Source of the DNA: Gammaproteobacteria bacterium
Lineage (GTDB): Bacteria > Pseudomonadota > Gammaproteobacteria > SpSt-1174
Direction of reading: 5' to 3'
Length of the DNA: 64,000 nucleotides
Assembly (NCBI GenBank): GCA_037388465.1
Contig: JARRKE010000013.1
Location: forward strand, 1 to 64,000
The notes under the pieces were generated by a model. The model had not been told where the DNA came from. It saw only the letters and a list, made by a program, of their open reading frames with translations, and searched no databases. Shown one piece after another: positions 7,354-58,923 of this stretch (positions within the stretch are counted from its first letter, which is position 1; each line of letters opens with the position of its first letter). The position numbers were made by a program, and so were the translations under genes.

Positions 7354-8282
7354 GCCGCACGCTCCGCGACCCGCAGCACCGCACTGCGGGCACGGGGATT
7401 GCGGGCGATCTCGTCTTCGCTCGCCCGTCGCGCCTTGCCGCACAGACGCAAGGGCACGACCTCTGCGGCCTGCGGCACCGGCAATCCGCGCGGGGCCTGG
7501 GGCGGTCGCGATGCATCGCGCATGAACCGTTTGACGATCCGGTCTTCCAGCGAGTGAAAACTGATCACCGCCAGCCGACCGCCAATGGCCAACACCTCCA
7601 GCGCCTGCGGCAAAGTGGCCTCGAGCGCCTGCAGTTCGGCGTTGATGAATATGCGAATCGCCTGAAAGCTGCGCGTGGCCGGATGCTTGTGCGGGTCCGG
7701 ACGCGGCACTGAACGCCGGATCAGGTCGGCCAGCTGGCGGGTCCGCGTCAGCGGCGTGGTCGTCCGGGCCTGAACCACGTTGCGCGCAATGCGTCGCGAA
7801 TAACGCTCCTCACCGTAACGCCACAGCACATCGGCGATCTCGCGCTCCGGGGCGGTATTAAGCCAGTCCGCCGCACTCGGGCCACGGTCGGGGTCCATGC
7901 GCATGTCGAGCGGGCCGTCCTGAATAAAACTAAAGCCCCGTAGGGGCTCGTCCAGTTGGGGCGAGGAAACCCCCAGGTCGAGGAGAATGCCCGCGACCCT
8001 GCCCAAACAGTCATGTTTTCGCGCCACCCGAGCCAGCATCTCAAACGACCCCCGCTCGATTACAAACCGTTTGTCCTCCGACGCCAGTCGCTCGCCTTCC
8101 GCCACCGCCTCCGGATCCTGGTCGATTCCGATCACCCGGCCCGCCGACCCCAGGCGCTCCAATATCAGCTGCGCATGGCCGCCCCTGCCGAAGGTGCCGT
8201 CGATAAACACCCCGTTCCCTTCCGGCCTCAGTGCTTCCAGCACCTCGGCGGGCATGACCGGCAAATGCGCCTCGCGCGCCAT
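7350..8282 (-). CDS. rsmH: 16S rRNA (cytosine(1402)-N4)-methyltransferase
   Basis: Methylates C1402 of 16S rRNA in the decoding centre, using SAM. The 310-residue protein begins [13 protein letters not shown] and has the SAM motif [10 protein letters not shown], then [14 protein letters not shown], the inserted helical domain and [14 protein letters not shown]. The ATG shares a base with the mraZ stop (TGATG). It is the second gene of the dcw cluster, as in most bacteria. In the same genome region, rsmI at 10034-10891 modifies the 2'-O of the same nucleotide. Confidence 0.97.
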
Positions 8283-8731
8283 CAGATCGATAAGGTCGCG
8301 AGCGCGTCGTTCAGCTCGTCAGCTTCGCTGCCCAGAACCTGCTCACGCTGCGCGTTCCAGGTCTCTTCGTCCCACAACTCAAACTTGTTTCCCTGACCGA
8401 CCAGGACCGCACGCTTCTCCAGGCCGGCGTATTCACGTAGTGCGGCCGGCAACAGGATGCGCCCCTGGGCGTCGAATTCGACCTCGGTCGCATGCCCCTG
8501 CATCAAGCGCTGCAGGGCGCGCACCTGACGGTTCATGTTGGGCAGCGACATGATTTTTTGTTCGATCTGCAGCCACTCGGGAAGCGGATAGATCAGCAGG
8601 CAACGGTCGGGGTCGACCGTCACGACGAGGTTGCCGCCACAGGTGTCGGCCAGCTGCTCACGGTAGCGCGCGGGCATGGCCAGCCGCCCCTTGGCATCCA
8701 GGTTCAGGTTGTTGACGCCGCGAAAAACCAT
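8282..8731 (-). CDS. mraZ: Transcriptional regulator MraZ
   Basis: AbrB-like DNA-binding protein that, in studied gammaproteobacteria, forms a ring and represses its own dcw promoter. The 149-residue protein has the duplicated fold: repeat one [20 protein letters not shown] and repeat two [19 protein letters not shown], both with the DAKGR/DAQGR signature. It is the first gene of the cluster. Three MraZ boxes lie just upstream at 8756-8781, so autoregulation is well supported here. Confidence 0.97.
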
Positions 8732-8755
8732 CGCTCAGCTCACCCGGGGTAATTT

Positions 8756-8781
8756 CCCCACCGATCCCCACTTTTCCCCAC
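8756..8781 (-). promoter_or_regulatory. MraZ operator: three GTGGGG boxes, 10-bp period
   Basis: On the minus strand the hexamer GTGGGG occurs three times, at 8781-8776, 8771-8766 and 8761-8756, each exactly 10 bases from the next. Direct repeats of GTGGG with one helical-turn spacing upstream of mraZ are the published MraZ binding pattern. The boxes lie between the promoter -10 (8790-8795) and the mraZ start (8731), so bound protein would cover the likely transcription start. Confidence 0.9.
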
Positions 8782-8789
8782 TTCGCCAC

Positions 8790-8819
8790 ACTATAGGAAG
8801 CAATTCCCTGCGCTGTCAA
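8790..8819 (-). promoter_or_regulatory. Sigma70-type promoter for the dcw cluster
   Basis: Minus strand: a perfect -35 TTGACA at 8819-8814, an 18-base spacer and a -10 TATAGT at 8795-8790. It is the only good promoter-like sequence I see between rnpB and mraZ. It places the start of transcription near 8783, at the edge of the MraZ boxes. Confidence 0.78.
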
Positions 8820-8965
8820 GGAAGAAATATGTAAAAGTTGTTTGTATGACAACGACTTAGCGAAACATCTACAGGTGGGAAATATCCAGTCCAAACCTGG
8901 CTGAGGGTATTAACAATCAGCGGGTTGAGAGCAGAAGCTAGAAATTACTTGAGGTATAGCCAAGG

Positions 8966-8990
8966 CGCCGGCAGGGAATCCATGCCGGCG
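8966..8990. other. 8-bp perfect hairpin in rnpB-mraZ intergenic region
   Basis: CGCCGGCA and TGCCGGCG pair around a 9-base loop. There is no T run on either side, so this is not a classic terminator. It lies downstream of rnpB on its strand and could trim or stop read-through from rnpB into the dcw promoter. The rest of 8820-9028 shows nothing I can name. Confidence 0.5.
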
Positions 8991-9028
8991 GATTACATAT
9001 ATTCATAAGCAGGTGTACATAAAAAATC

Positions 9029-9376
<348 letters not shown>

Positions 9377-49966: not shown

Positions 49967-50725
49967 ATGACTGACTGGGTGGAAGGCAAGGTCATCGAAC
50001 AAAAGCAATGGACGGAGCACCATTATTCGCTGCGCTTCGAAGCCCCCATAGAACCCTTCGAGGCGGGCCAGTTCGTGCGCGTCGCCCTGGATATCGACGG
50101 CCAACGCATCGCCCGTCCCTACTCCTGCGTGAACCCGCCGCAGGACCCCGTGCTCGAGATCTACTACGACATCATTCCCGAAGGCCCGCTGAGCAACCGC
50201 CTGCCGGCGCTTGAACCGGACGATACCCTGTTCGTCGCCTCCAGGGCGCAGGGATTTTTCACCCTCGGCGAAGTACCGGACGGGTCCCAGTTGTGGATGC
50301 TCTCCACCGGGACCGCGCTGGGCGTCTTCCTGTCCATCCTGCGCACCGAGGAACCCTGGCGTCGCTTCGACAGGCTGGTCCTGGTGCATGCCGTACGCCG
50401 CGTCCAGGACCTCGTCTATCGCGATATCATCGACCGGATTGCCGAACGCCATGCCGACCGGTTTCAGTACATTCCTTTCGTAAGCCGTGAGCAAACCGAT
50501 TTCGCCCTGTCCGGCCACATCCCGGACGCGATCCGCGAGGGACAGCTGGAGCAACGCGCCGGACTCGAATTCACGCCGGACGCGCAATTCATGCTGTGCG
50601 GCAATCCGGGCATGCTGAAGGACACCACCGCGGTCCTCGGCGAACGCGGCTTTCGCAAAAACCGCCGCCGCGACCCCGGACACATCACCACCGAACGTTA
50701 CTGGTCGGAGGGCTCTACCCCATGA
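49967..50725 (+). CDS. fpr: Ferredoxin/flavodoxin--NADP reductase
   Basis: FAD enzyme that moves electrons between NADPH and ferredoxin or flavodoxin. The 252-residue protein has the FAD motif RPYSCVNPP, the NADPH-binding [16 protein letters not shown] and CGNPGML, and ends in the aromatic-containing tail HITTERYW typical of the bacterial Fpr class. The ATG at 49967 is chosen over a longer frame by family fit. The msrB start overlaps its stop (ATGA), suggesting joint expression for oxidative-stress repair. Confidence 0.93.
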
Positions 50726-51129
50726 GCGACAAGATCCGCAAATCCGACGAGGAATGGCGTGCCGAACTCACACCGGAACAATTCCAGGTCACCCGCAAGG
50801 CGGGCACCGAACCGCCGTTCACCGGCGTCTACTACGACCATCACGAACCCGGCCTGTATCGCTGCATCTGCTGCAACGCACCGTTATTCCGCTCCGTGGA
50901 AAAATTCGACTCCGGCAGCGGCTGGCCCAGTTACTGGCAACCGGTGACGGAGGACGCCGTCATCCGGCATACCGACCACAGCCACGGCATGACCCGCACC
51001 GAGGTGCGCTGCGCCCGCTGCGACGCCCATCTCGGACACGTCTTCGAAGACGGTCCACAGCCCACCGGCCTGCGCTACTGCATCAATTCTGCCGCGCTGC
51101 GTTTCGAGGGTGACGGGCAGGACACCTGA
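50722..51129 (+). CDS. msrB: Peptide-methionine (R)-S-oxide reductase
   Basis: Repairs Met-R-sulfoxide in proteins. The 135-residue enzyme has two zinc CxxC pairs (CICC and CARC), [20 protein letters not shown] and the catalytic Cys in [11 protein letters not shown]. It has no signal peptide, so it is cytoplasmic. It is coupled to the upstream reductase gene by a 4-base overlap; thioredoxin is the usual electron donor for this family. Confidence 0.97.
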
Positions 51130-51158
51130 AGCCAACCCACGTCTCTGGAGGATTCGCG

Positions 51159-51734
51159 ATGGAAAGCCTGAGCAGCTTGTACGACGCCCTCCCCGATTTC
51201 ATCCGCGCCAGTATTCCCACCATCATCCTGCTCGTCGGCGGGAGCCTGGGCATTGCGGTGATTCAGCGTCTGGTACGCCAATCGCTGGCGCGGCTGCAAC
51301 GGCGCATCCCGCTCTCGCTGGATACCGTACTCGTCCTGCAGCGCCTGAGCGCCGGCGTGCTGTGGACGGTACTGCTGCTGTTTCTGCTGCACCTGTGGGG
51401 CATCAACGTCAGCGGGCTGTGGGCCATGCTGGTCAGCGTGCTGGCCGTGATCGGGGTCGGCCTGCTGGCAGTCTGGACCATGATCAGCAACATCACTGCC
51501 AGCCTGTTCATCTGGATCTGGCGTCCCTACGAACTCGGCCAGCAGATCGAAATCCTGCCCGAGGGCTTCAAGGGCCGGGCGGTGGACCGCAACATGATGT
51601 TCACCGAGGTCAGGGAAGACGACGGCAACATCCTCGCCATCCCCAACAACCTGTTCTTCCAGCGCATCATCCGCCGCTCCCCCGACGGCAGCCAGGAACC
51701 CATCGAACAATGGGAGGCCAGAACCCGGCGCTGA
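51159..51734 (+). CDS. Small MscS-family mechanosensitive channel
   Basis: A 191-residue membrane protein. It has three hydrophobic segments (about 20-38, 65-85, 90-115), the last being the Gly/Ala pore helix region (SVLAVIGVGLLAVW), then the beta domain (RPYELGQQIEILPEGFKGRAV) and AIPNNLFFQRIIRR, as in MscS. It lacks most of the C-terminal vestibule, so it is shorter than E. coli MscS (286). It probably opens on osmotic downshock. A strong terminator follows. Confidence 0.88.
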   Translation: MESLSSLYDALPDFIRASIPTIILLVGGSLGIAVIQRLVRQSLARLQRRIPLSLDTVLVLQRLSAGVLWTVLLLFLLHLWGINVSGLWAMLVSVLAVIGVGLLAVWTMISNITASLFIWIWRPYELGQQIEILPEGFKGRAVDRNMMFTEVREDDGNILAIPNNLFFQRIIRRSPDGSQEPIEQWEARTRR

Positions 51735-51749
51735 CACCCACCAGCCCCA

Positions 51750-51786
51750 TAAAAAAACAGCCCCGCCAAGGCGGGGCTGTTTTTTC
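51750..51786. terminator. Bidirectional Rho-independent terminator
   Basis: Stem ACAGCCCCGCC/GGCGGGGCTGT with an AA loop, seven A before and six T after. It ends the mscS-like transcript on the plus strand and can also stop the cytochrome b561-like gene read from the other side. Confidence 0.95.
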
Positions 51787-51824
51787 AAACGCCGGGGACC
51801 GACCGGGCGGCCCCGGATGCACGA

Positions 51825-52370
51825 CTACCAGAGCTTGATACGCTCCACTACGTCGTTGCCGTCGATATAGCGGTGCTTGATCGCGCCGGCCACGTGCACG
51901 ATCACCAACACCAGCAGACTGTACGCCAGGAAGCTGTGCGCCCCCTCGAAAAACTCGTGCACCCAGCCGACCTTCGGCAGCGCCTCCGGCAGCTGCAGCA
52001 GGCCATAGAAGGGAATCTTGTGCCCCGCGCTGGAAACCATCAGGTATCCCGCAATCGGCACCAGCAGCATACACAGGTACATCAGGCGCTGGATCACCCA
52101 GGCGAGTCGGTGTTCCCAGGGCCAGAGGTTTTCGGCCTCTTTGGGCGGTTTGGTGTACAGATGCCAGCCGGAGCGCAACAGAATCAGGACCAGCAGCACC
52201 ACGCCGGTCGACATATGGAGCGTGAACAGGACGAGCCTCGAGCTGTCGGTCTTGGGCACGTCACCCATAAAGGCCCCCAGCGCGATCATGCCGAGAATCA
52301 ACAGGGCCATCAGCCAGTGCAAAACGCGTGTGACCCAACCGTATTCGGTGGCGGTATTGGTTGCCCGCAT
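51825..52370 (-). CDS. Cytochrome b561-type membrane protein
   Basis: A 181-residue four-helix di-haem membrane protein. His ligands lie in RVLHWLMALLI, LFTLHMSTGVVLL, and HEFFEGAHSFLAYSLLVLVIVHVAGAIKH, at the spacing of bacterial b561 (YodB/YceJ) proteins. It probably passes electrons from quinol, or superoxide to quinone. The ATG at 52370 is chosen because AAGGAG lies 7 bases upstream; a TTG two codons earlier is weaker. The DoxX-type gene is 135 bases upstream on the same strand. Confidence 0.92.
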   Translation of the reverse strand: MRATNTATEYGWVTRVLHWLMALLILGMIALGAFMGDVPKTDSSRLVLFTLHMSTGVVLLVLILLRSGWHLYTKPPKEAENLWPWEHRLAWVIQRLMYLCMLLVPIAGYLMVSSAGHKIPFYGLLQLPEALPKVGWVHEFFEGAHSFLAYSLLVLVIVHVAGAIKHRYIDGNDVVERIKLW

Positions 52371-52505
52371 GTTCAACTCCTTTCGCTCGCAAGATGTTAT
52401 TGGTTATTCAGAAACCCGGCGCCCCCAAAGGGGACGCCGGGCCTATCCTAACCGCTAATTGCTTAACCTTGCCTGAACGATTGACAACGAACAGGCACAA
52501 AGGTG

Positions 52506-52880
52506 TCAGGCCGGACGGCGGTCGAAGCTCCAAGCACCCGGACCGTGCACCGCCAGCGCCATCAGGCCGCCCGCGATGGCGAAGTCCTTCATGAAATTGA
52601 TCATATCCATCTGCTGGGAGAAGTTATGATGAAAAATCGCTGCGGCCACCACGCTGAAGATCGCCAGGGCCCAGGAGATCCACCGGGTCTGCCAGCCGAC
52701 GAGCAGCGCCAGCCCGCCGCCGACCTCGAGCAGGATCACCAGCGGCAGCAGCATGCCGGGGACGCCGAAGGCCTGCATGTAACCCTGGGTGGCCGCATAA
52801 CCGCTGATCTTGCCGATACCGGCGATCAGAAACAGTTGGGACAGTAAAATCCGGCTGACCAGCAAATAATAGGTATTCAT
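52506..52880 (-). CDS. DoxX-family membrane protein
   Basis: A 124-residue protein with four hydrophobic segments: YYLLVSRILLSQLFLIAGIGKI, VPGMLLPLVILLEVGGGLALLVGW, WISWALAIFSVVAAAIF and MKDFAIAGGLMALAVHG. The GKI, E-x-GGGLAL, HNF and FMKD motifs are those of the DoxX/YphA family. Its role is unclear; members are tied to quinone or thiol redox. The start is ATG 52880, with AAGGAG 7 bases upstream. It lies before the b561 gene, fitting a redox role. Confidence 0.9.
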   Translation of the reverse strand: MNTYYLLVSRILLSQLFLIAGIGKISGYAATQGYMQAFGVPGMLLPLVILLEVGGGLALLVGWQTRWISWALAIFSVVAAAIFHHNFSQQMDMINFMKDFAIAGGLMALAVHGPGAWSFDRRPA

Positions 52881-53036
52881 CAATTTTCTCCTTATGCTTC
52901 CTCAGTGGTAGGTGGAATAAATCATGCCCCAGACAGTCATATGTATGATAGACAAGGTTCCTGACCGCCAAGGTCAAACTTTCTGACCGTATTCGTAACG
53001 ATTCATCACCCGGCTCACCCCAAATAACGCATCCCA

Positions 53037-54305
53037 ATGACGCTGCTACGCCTCACCCTGCTCCTGGGCATGGTCTGCCTACCGCTGTATGCCCATGCCG
53101 ACCTCGTCGAACACGATCTCACCGTCCCCAGCGGCGCCAGCATCCCGGTCCATGTCGCCGCGGCTGCCAAAAGCCGGACCACGCTGCTGTGGATTCCCTC
53201 CGAACACGGCCTGCGCACGGGCATGGAACAGGCCGCGACGGGCATCGCGAAACAGGGCTTCACCACCTGGCTGGCGGACCTGCAGACGGGTTATTTCGTT
53301 CCGGCCGACCGCGACAGCGTGAAGGCCTACAAGACCGGAGACATCCTGGCCCTGATGCAGGATGCGCTGGACGCCGGAGCCAAACGCCTGCTGCTGATCA
53401 GCGCCGGACGGGGCGCACGCGCCACCCTGGAGGCGGCGCATGCCTGGCAGGTGAAACACCCCGACCAGGCGGGCGCGCTCCAGGGGGTCATCCTCCTGCA
53501 CCCCTACCTGTACGTGCACCGGCCGGCCCCCGGTACCGAAGTGGCCTACGTGCCGGCCACCTATGCCACCAACCTGCCGGTATTCCTGATCCAGCCGGAA
53601 AACTCCTCGCGTTACTGGCGCCTGTCCTCACTGCAGGCCAGCCTGCGCCAGGGAGGCGCCGCGGTGTATACCAAGGTCATCCCGGGAATCGAGGACGGCT
53701 TCATCTCCCGCCCCGACGGCATGCTCACGACCGGGGACCGCCAGGCGCGCAAGGACTTCCCGACCGTGATCCATCAGGCGGCATTCCTGCTCGAGCACAC
53801 CCCGCGATCGGCCCATCCGCCGCAGCTGCGCCCGATGGTGAGGCCCACAGGCGAACAGCAGGCCCACGCCGACGACCTCAATACAGCCGGCCAGCCCGCC
53901 CCGCCGCTTAAACTCAAGGACCTGCAGGGACAGCCCGTGGACCTCGCGGCACTGCGCGGCAAGGTGGTGCTGGTCAGTTTCTGGGCCAAATGGTGTCCGC
54001 CGTGTCGCGAGGAACTGCCCACCCTGATCAATCTCTACCAGCAACTGAGCGGCGAGAACTTCACCATCGTGTCGGTGGAAGTGGGCGGCAAGGCCGATGT
54101 GGTCCGCGACTTCGTGGACCAGGAAGGCATCAACTTCCCCGTCCTGCACGACACGGACGGACACGCCGTACGCACCTGGAGTGTCTACGCCTATCCCACG
54201 AACTTCCTGATCGGCCCCGACGGCAGGATTCGCTACGCCCATTTCGGTGCCCGCGACTGGAACTCGCCGGCGTCGATGGCGATGATCCGCAAACTCATGC
54301 CTTGA
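53037..54305 (+). CDS. Fusion: degenerate alpha/beta-hydrolase plus TlpA-type thioredoxin, periplasmic
   Basis: A 422-residue secreted protein: Sec signal MTLLRLTLLLGMVCLPLYAHA, an alpha/beta-hydrolase-like region (about 40-260), a linker, and a thioredoxin domain (about 285-420). The hydrolase part has TTLLWIPSEHGLRTGM and LLLISAGRGARATLEAA, but the elbow reads SAGRGA rather than GxSxG, so the nucleophile appears lost. The C-domain has FWAKWCPPCREELP (C320, C323) and the cis-Pro region YAYPTNFLIGPDG, typical of TlpA/ResA thiol-disulfide proteins. It resembles no single family I can name as a whole. Confidence 0.85.
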   Translation: MTLLRLTLLLGMVCLPLYAHADLVEHDLTVPSGASIPVHVAAAAKSRTTLLWIPSEHGLRTGMEQAATGIAKQGFTTWLADLQTGYFVPADRDSVKAYKTGDILALMQDALDAGAKRLLLISAGRGARATLEAAHAWQVKHPDQAGALQGVILLHPYLYVHRPAPGTEVAYVPATYATNLPVFLIQPENSSRYWRLSSLQASLRQGGAAVYTKVIPGIEDGFISRPDGMLTTGDRQARKDFPTVIHQAAFLLEHTPRSAHPPQLRPMVRPTGEQQAHADDLNTAGQPAPPLKLKDLQGQPVDLAALRGKVVLVSFWAKWCPPCREELPTLINLYQQLSGENFTIVSVEVGGKADVVRDFVDQEGINFPVLHDTDGHAVRTWSVYAYPTNFLIGPDGRIRYAHFGARDWNSPASMAMIRKLMP

Positions 54306-57912: not shown

Positions 57913-58923
57913 TCAGTTAAGACCGCAAACTTCAAAAGCGGTTGCGAACGCCGCCCGGTCTTCAGGCAGCATGCGTTCGTACAGGTAGCGCCGCGCCGCG
58001 CAGACCCGCTTGGTGTACGGGTCATGCGCACGCAGGCCGGCGCGGATATCGCGTCGGCCTGCCGGGACGCGGTAGTTCGGGCACCAATAACGCCGCGAAT
58101 CGTCGGACTGCTGGACCTGCGCCGGCGCGCTGCCGCAACGCACCGTCACGTAAGGATCGTGGATGTTGTTGTCCTTCGGGCGCTCGTGAGTCGCCGGCTG
58201 CCAGTCTTCCAGCACCGAAAGCGGCACGAACAATCCCGACGCGTCGGTTGCCCGCGGCGGCCGAATGGTGCGGTTGTACCAGGCCTCCGAGGGCATATTC
58301 GGTATGTGGCACAGCGCACACTGGTTCAGTCGCCGGAACCGGTCCAGCTCCTCCCCTTTCAGGGGCGGCTCACCCAGCGGGCCCGGTGTGGCGGCGACGA
58401 TGCCCACCAGGCGCCCGGTGGCTTCGGCCTGGGCCTGCGGGTCGCCGGCGGGCCAGCTCCAGCCGGTCAGTTCGGCATCGGGCTTGCCCGACGCCGGCTC
58501 CAGTACGCTGTAACGCACGGGAAGGCCGTCCGAGCCGATCGTCGCCATGCGCACATCGCCCTGGGATTCCGCCCACGAGCCGTCGGCCGCGCGGTAACGC
58601 ACCGCCTCGACCCGTGCGATTCGGGTCCCGTCGGGGAAACGCAGCGTATAACGCTGTTGCTGGGGAAGGTACTGCGTCGTGATATGACCGCCGGCAGGCA
58701 CCTTGACCCAGATGTGCAGAGCATCATCGCGGTCCAGGCGGGTGGGCAGACGGACGGGCGGGACAAGCTCGGCAAACCCCGCGCGGCGCCAATGGTCCCG
58801 CGGCGACTTGATCGTGACCGCCTGCACTGCCGAAGTCGTTGCCTCCTGCGTTTCGCCGGATTTGCGCTCACAACCCGTCAGCAGCAATCCGAACACCAGA
58901 CAAACGCAGAGTGCTGTTTTCAT
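57913..58923 (-). CDS. Predicted lipoprotein with one c-type haem site, function unknown
   Basis: A 336-residue exported lipoprotein: MKTALCVCLVFGLLLTGC gives a lipobox with Cys18. A single CALCH haem-attachment motif lies at residues 202-206, in QCALCHIPNMPSEAW. The N-terminal half is beta-rich; the C-terminal part holds four further Cys (VRC, YWC, RVC and EVC) that could form disulfides. Family not recognised. It could be a mono-haem electron carrier or sensor at the cell surface. It lies 37 bases upstream of gshA on the same strand. Confidence 0.78.
   Translation of the reverse strand: MKTALCVCLVFGLLLTGCERKSGETQEATTSAVQAVTIKSPRDHWRRAGFAELVPPVRLPTRLDRDDALHIWVKVPAGGHITTQYLPQQQRYTLRFPDGTRIARVEAVRYRAADGSWAESQGDVRMATIGSDGLPVRYSVLEPASGKPDAELTGWSWPAGDPQAQAEATGRLVGIVAATPGPLGEPPLKGEELDRFRRLNQCALCHIPNMPSEAWYNRTIRPPRATDASGLFVPLSVLEDWQPATHERPKDNNIHDPYVTVRCGSAPAQVQQSDDSRRYWCPNYRVPAGRRDIRAGLRAHDPYTKRVCAARRYLYERMLPEDRAAFATAFEVCGLN

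Follow-up and report, generated by a model that had tools for sequence, protein, structure and literature searches.

A gammaproteobacterial family joining a TlpA/ResA-type thioredoxin domain to a predicted non-hydrolytic, dienelactone hydrolase-like domain

Introduction

What might a hydrolase-like domain that seems to have lost its catalytic residues do in front of a periplasmic thioredoxin? The question is raised by one gene in a 64,000-nucleotide stretch of a gammaproteobacterial contig (JARRKE010000013.1, positions 1 to 64,000; hereafter the window). The original prediction, made from the letters of this stretch, described a single signal peptide, an alpha/beta-hydrolase-like domain with the nucleophile elbow SAGRGA instead of GxSxG, and a thioredoxin domain with an intact CPPC. 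It proposed that a dead hydrolase serves as a binding platform that targets reduction, for example in cytochrome maturation or envelope repair, in an architecture that it did not recognise as a named family. Periplasmic reductases are numerous, and the substrates of most are unknown.

Results

The gene and its parts

The coordinates, frame and length first assigned to the open reading frame are correct (ATG, stop and 422 residues checked), and its parts run from a signal peptide through a degenerate alpha/beta-hydrolase domain, resembling dienelactone hydrolase (DLH), to a TlpA/ResA thioredoxin domain:

53037..54305, + strand: complete gene of 422 aa, with ATG at 53037 and the stop ending at 54305 (ORF reading)
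53037..53099, + strand: signal peptide, residues 1-21, MTLLRLTLLLGMVCLPLYAHA, with an SPase I-like site, AHA-D (by eye)
53100..53798, + strand: N-domain, predicted DLH-like alpha/beta-hydrolase fold without the triad (hhalign, AF2 strand/helix order, Foldseek)
53400..53417, + strand: degenerate nucleophile elbow SAGRGA, residues 122-127, with Gly124 at the nucleophile position (family column)
53682..53705, + strand: loop PGIEDGFI, residues 216-223, at the place of the DLH catalytic His, here Asp220 (family column 220)
53799..53885, + strand: Pro-rich interdomain linker (by eye)
53886..54302, + strand: C-domain, TlpA/ResA-type thioredoxin, about residues 282-422 (Pfam AhpC-TSA, PDB)
53991..54014, + strand: active site WCPPCREE, residues 319-326, with Cys320, Cys323 and Glu326 (the position of ResA Glu80)

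The single signal peptide agrees with the hydrophobic N-terminal segment, read by eye, that ends at AHA-D. Such a segment is found in 92 of the 97 family members defined below, with a lipobox-like sequence in 5, and on this basis the family is predicted to be exported across the inner membrane and to be periplasmic. Across the family, a median of 61 residues separates the end of the N-domain match from the Trp of WxxWCxxC.

Extent of the family

A search of 37 relatives gave full-length fused homologues, with identities of 31-43%, in about ten genomes, and a search of genome contigs for related loci returned a single named relative, a Thiotrichales MAG. We then ran a profile of 14 N-domains (A1) against 369 genomes of the Gammaproteobacteria, the window's class, at E <= 1e-6. 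It matched 78 genomes, 76 of which were counted as carriers; the other two (G108 and G311) gave weak, DLH-like matches only and were left out. A sample of the whole phylum held one further clear member, of the same class, so the family looks restricted to Gammaproteobacteria; viral contigs gave matches to the TlpA domain only, and plasmids gave none. The 97 family ORFs comprise 88 intact WCxxC fusions, one fusion broken by masked Ns (L010) and 8 stand-alone N-domains.

No Pfam or NCBIfam model covers the N-domain or the fusion architecture, and a literature search found no description of a fusion between a hydrolase-like domain and TlpA. The statement that this is no named family thus holds for the name and has to be qualified for the family itself, which recurs lineage-wide (76 of the 369 genomes) and comes close to an established one, though uncharacterised. 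The fusion is a variant of the TlpA-type reductase with an uncatalogued N-domain. Several genomes hold two or three copies, among them a pair of diverged fusions that are convergent neighbours (L095:6330-7691, + strand, and 7761-9206, - strand); given these multiple copies, the family seems to include paralogues with separate roles.

The thiol centre and its electron source

The C-domain matches Pfam AhpC-TSA with E values of 2.9e-29 and 2.5e-30, and its nearest PDB entries are 3kcm (9.6e-27) and Bacillus subtilis ResA (1st9, 2.1e-26). Among NCBIfam models ResA is nearest (102 bits, cut-off 170); the scores for TlpA (71 bits, cut-off 230) and DsbE (64 bits, cut-off 123) also fall below threshold. 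The CPPC first described as intact reads W-A-K-W-C-P-P-C in the window protein, and CxxC is present in 88/88 intact fusions, with the ResA-type Glu (CxxCxxE) in 87 of them. All 88 also have the cis-Pro (67 by pattern, 21 by eye). Fold, WCxxC, Glu and cis-Pro together assign the C-domain, by prediction, to the TlpA/ResA-type thiol-disulfide oxidoreductases. One fused member (L133:6357-7652, + strand) carries an altered redox motif, WPEWCNSC, with the Glu absent, and has possibly changed its redox function.

Such reductases usually receive their electrons from the membrane protein DsbD/CcdA (PMC3884852, PMC9145763, ResA/CcdA). DsbD/CcdA is present in 59 of the 60 carriers tested and in 49/49 good-quality genomes, and the host genome encodes one full-length DsbD, which adjoins another TlpA. 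We infer that electron flow through the C-domain would run in the reductase direction.

Relation to cytochrome maturation

A reductase of this type could belong to cytochrome biogenesis (CcmG/ResA/CcsX, or a TlpA acting at the CuA site), with an N-domain that recognises apocytochrome, oxidase subunit II or heme. ResA is the closest characterised protein to the C-domain. The host genome (G000) has ResB and no CcmF, which indicates System II cytochrome c maturation, and System II needs a ResA-like reductant. In addition, a class-I cytochrome c gene lies upstream, in divergent orientation, at five split loci (L132, L135, L136, L139 and L141). These five loci, however, come from related lineages, and carriage of the family across the 369 genomes is independent of CcmF (55 of 76 carriers versus 225 of 293 non-carriers, p = 0.45), on which ground a tie to System I maturation was rejected. 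A System I CcmG would occur together with the Ccm system, yet CcmF is absent from the host and likewise from 21 of the 76 carriers; ResB is present in 18 of these 21, and carriers thus comprise both System I and ResB genomes. A detectable CuA subunit (COX2) is absent from 18 of 60 carriers (11 of 49 good-quality genomes), and exclusive service of CuA by the family is unlikely. The host also has other TlpA-like genes, and the pooled neighbour scan found no cytochrome c gene beside the fused versions. Because carriage is CcmF-independent, some carriers are CuA-less and the fusions have no cytochrome c neighbours, the family is unlikely to serve a single cytochrome pathway only, although some members may do so. 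We therefore regard a cytochrome-biogenesis reductase as an unlikely description of the family; with no System I correlation, a System II host and carriers that lack the CuA subunit, cytochrome maturation as its specific role, the example first offered, is not borne out.

Fold of the N-domain

Residues 22-280 had no Pfam or NCBIfam match even at E <= 1, and sequence searches of the N-domain against Pfam, NCBIfam and the PDB yielded nothing useful. Weak PDB matches to dihydrodipicolinate synthase, a protein of unrelated fold, spanned 50-100 residues, look like chance and were rejected. Six distant stand-alone relatives from the same class match Pfam DLH (PF01738) at about 1e-14 to 1e-15, and the N-domain profile aligns with the profile of these DLH-like relatives over 215 columns (hhalign, probability 98.3, E 1.8e-14). 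This alignment pairs SAGRGA with SHTRGG, and PGIEDGF with PGVGRGF, the loop in which true dienelactone hydrolases have their catalytic His (GHGF); the DLH-like comparison family itself lacks Ser and His.

An AF2 model from two input sequences, of low confidence (mean pLDDT 51.9), has a strand and helix order that fits the alpha/beta-hydrolase fold and puts strand 97-104 before the elbow and helix 106-120 after it (mature numbering). Foldseek with this low-confidence model returned ResA/TlpA first and then lipases and esterases (3rli and 4fbl, TMt about 0.5; 3rli over 253 columns). The alpha/beta-hydrolase-like assignment, weak from a single sequence, is thus backed by the profile-profile comparison and by the Foldseek matches of the low-confidence model, and the predicted fold is homologous to DLH indirectly, by way of proteins that match PF01738. 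Conservation within the N-domain is low: in a 14-member alignment, identity to the window protein is 24-40%. The near-invariant residues (W52, D81, F87, G150, G166 and G207) are few, so a specific conserved binding site is not obvious.

Pairing of the two halves

Directly downstream of each of the nine stand-alone N-domains lies a separate TlpA gene in the same orientation, and in most cases only a few bases separate the two genes or are shared by them. Of these nine split loci, 8 were drawn from the class sample and L149/L175 from the phylum sample; they represent several families and are not independent of one another. The host genome has about nine matches to the TlpA-type domain, and with so few per genome chance adjacency would be rare at any one locus. 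In a maximum-likelihood tree (midpoint-rooted, with weak deep support), the partner TlpAs of 8 of the 9 split loci group with 36 fused TlpA domains, and that of L140 lies inside the wider family. The two halves are obligately paired, fused or as adjacent genes, and by this Rosetta-stone evidence they almost certainly work together.

Other genes around the fusions are not retained. A Pfam scan of their pooled neighbours gave no recurring partner (at most 4 of 56), so the neighbour survey proposed at the outset turned up no conserved gene besides TlpA itself and suggests no substrate. In the window, positions 50599-52883, upstream of the fusion, hold MsrB-like, MscS-like channel, cytochrome b561-like (- strand) and DoxX (- strand) genes; the DoxX gene is divergent from the fusion and was confirmed with Pfam, and the other three were assigned by eye. 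Two of these genes, msrB and b561, are redox-related, in an arrangement not seen conserved at other loci. Elsewhere in the window, near gshA, a lipoprotein-like exported ORF at 57913-58923 (- strand) carries a CxxCH heme-binding motif (CALCH).

The pairing bears on whether the N-domain is a mere structural spacer or oligomerisation domain in a general periplasmic reductase. Partner genes that are not conserved, low sequence conservation, and D81 as the only conserved polar pocket residue all suit such a protein, and with so poorly conserved an N-domain and no obvious binding site a purely structural role fits equally well. Against it, a domain of about 230 residues has been kept with its TlpA partner across many families, also where unfused (9/9), and the unfused copies indicate that covalent spacing is not essential. 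We consider a mere spacer improbable.

Loss of the catalytic residues

In the window protein, Gly124 and Asp220 replace the nucleophile Cys/Ser and the catalytic His. The SAGRGA elbow was confirmed at residues 122-127, and it is not an individual mutation, since the elbow is degenerate family-wide: among the 97 members, the nucleophile column holds Gly in 46, Asp in 16, Ser in 15, Glu in 6 and Asn in 4, plus others. The catalytic-His column (220) holds Asp in 55, Ser in 16 and Gly in 15, plus others, and His in none. When every N-domain column was checked for a conserved His, the highest count was 26 of 97; among acidic residues D81 is the best conserved (85 of 97). Where the elbow keeps a Ser (15 members), it often reads SGSYG, which is GxSxG-like. 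None of these members has His at the expected position, and in 2 of them a His stands elsewhere in that loop, displaced by a few residues.

Judged by these columns, neither a canonical nor a displaced triad is kept as a family trait, and the N-domain is predicted to be non-hydrolytic family-wide. The dead-hydrolase claim therefore extends, as a prediction, from one protein to all 97 members, and a Ser-His-Asp triad elsewhere in the N-domain, which would have told against it, is not kept as a family feature. The notion that the N-domain is instead catalytic through an unconventional active site, built for example on the conserved D81 or on Ser124 in the SGSYG minority, is very unlikely, since no column has a conserved His and the elbow residue is freely Gly, Asp, Glu, Asn or Ser.

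Discussion

The reading that we favour, at a probability of roughly 60%, is a DsbD-fed periplasmic thiol reductase in which a repurposed hydrolase domain would act as a docking module. The exported protein would be a periplasmic thiol-disulfide reductase whose chemistry is carried out by the C-terminal TlpA/ResA-type domain, presumably kept reduced by DsbD/CcdA. The N-domain would have lost its triad at the base of the family and may now dock or bind a ligand so as to give the reductase a particular substrate. A lost triad, a kept thiol centre and a 9/9 pairing upstream of TlpA are what a binding or targeting module predicts. In this respect the proposal of a binding platform that targets reduction gains support, although its link to cytochrome maturation does not.

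A broader version, which we advance only tentatively and consider doubtful as it stands, is that the family constitutes a gammaproteobacterial envelope redox module, encoded as one fused gene or as an operon of two, whose hydrolase fold steers DsbD electrons to an unrecognised class of periplasmic targets. If true, this would be a reductive branch apart from DsbC/DsbG, CcmG/ResA and CuA-TlpA. An N-domain of about 230 residues, kept beside one type of TlpA in many families, would offer a handle for fishing out the substrate. It would also be an addition to what Pfam and NCBIfam cover, and, for bacteria, a clear example of catalysis being lost, by prediction, from an alpha/beta-hydrolase fold across a whole family.

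The fusion shares with TlpA, ResA and CcmG (B. subtilis ResA, 1st9; Bradyrhizobium TlpA, 1jfu) the C-domain fold, a CPPC-type site, the Glu three residues past the second Cys, the cis-Pro and predicted export. In contrast to the fusion, those proteins are single-domain, membrane-anchored or soluble, and without a hydrolase-like domain, and the fusion family scores far under the NCBIfam cut-offs of ResA, TlpA and DsbE. The N-domain resembles the dienelactone hydrolase family (PF01738) in predicted fold and, through same-class DLH-like proteins, in profile; unlike PF01738 enzymes, it is missing the pair of nucleophile Ser/Cys and catalytic His family-wide, and the domain in the window has no direct PF01738 match.

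DipZ of Mycobacterium tuberculosis (2hyx/5cyy) is another envelope protein that unites a TlpA-like thioredoxin domain with an accessory domain of binding type. In DipZ, by contrast, the accessory domain follows the thioredoxin domain and is a beta-sandwich resembling a carbohydrate-binding module, and the protein has its own CcdA-like membrane part. Neuroligin and thyroglobulin provide a precedent for alpha/beta-hydrolase folds that lack the triad and serve protein binding, although they are eukaryotic, cholinesterase-like rather than DLH-like, and have no link to thiol redox chemistry.

A separate, strongly conserved exported DLH-like family was also encountered (L025:5148-6014, - strand; L026:4700-5578, + strand; L027:4740-5591, + strand; L146-L148), with 63% mean column identity. 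Its SxTRGGY elbow is invariant, with Thr for Ser/Cys, and in YPGxGR an Arg takes the place of the DLH catalytic His; WW and HGRRG motifs are conserved as well. By these motifs, this family also looks non-hydrolytic or catalytically unusual.
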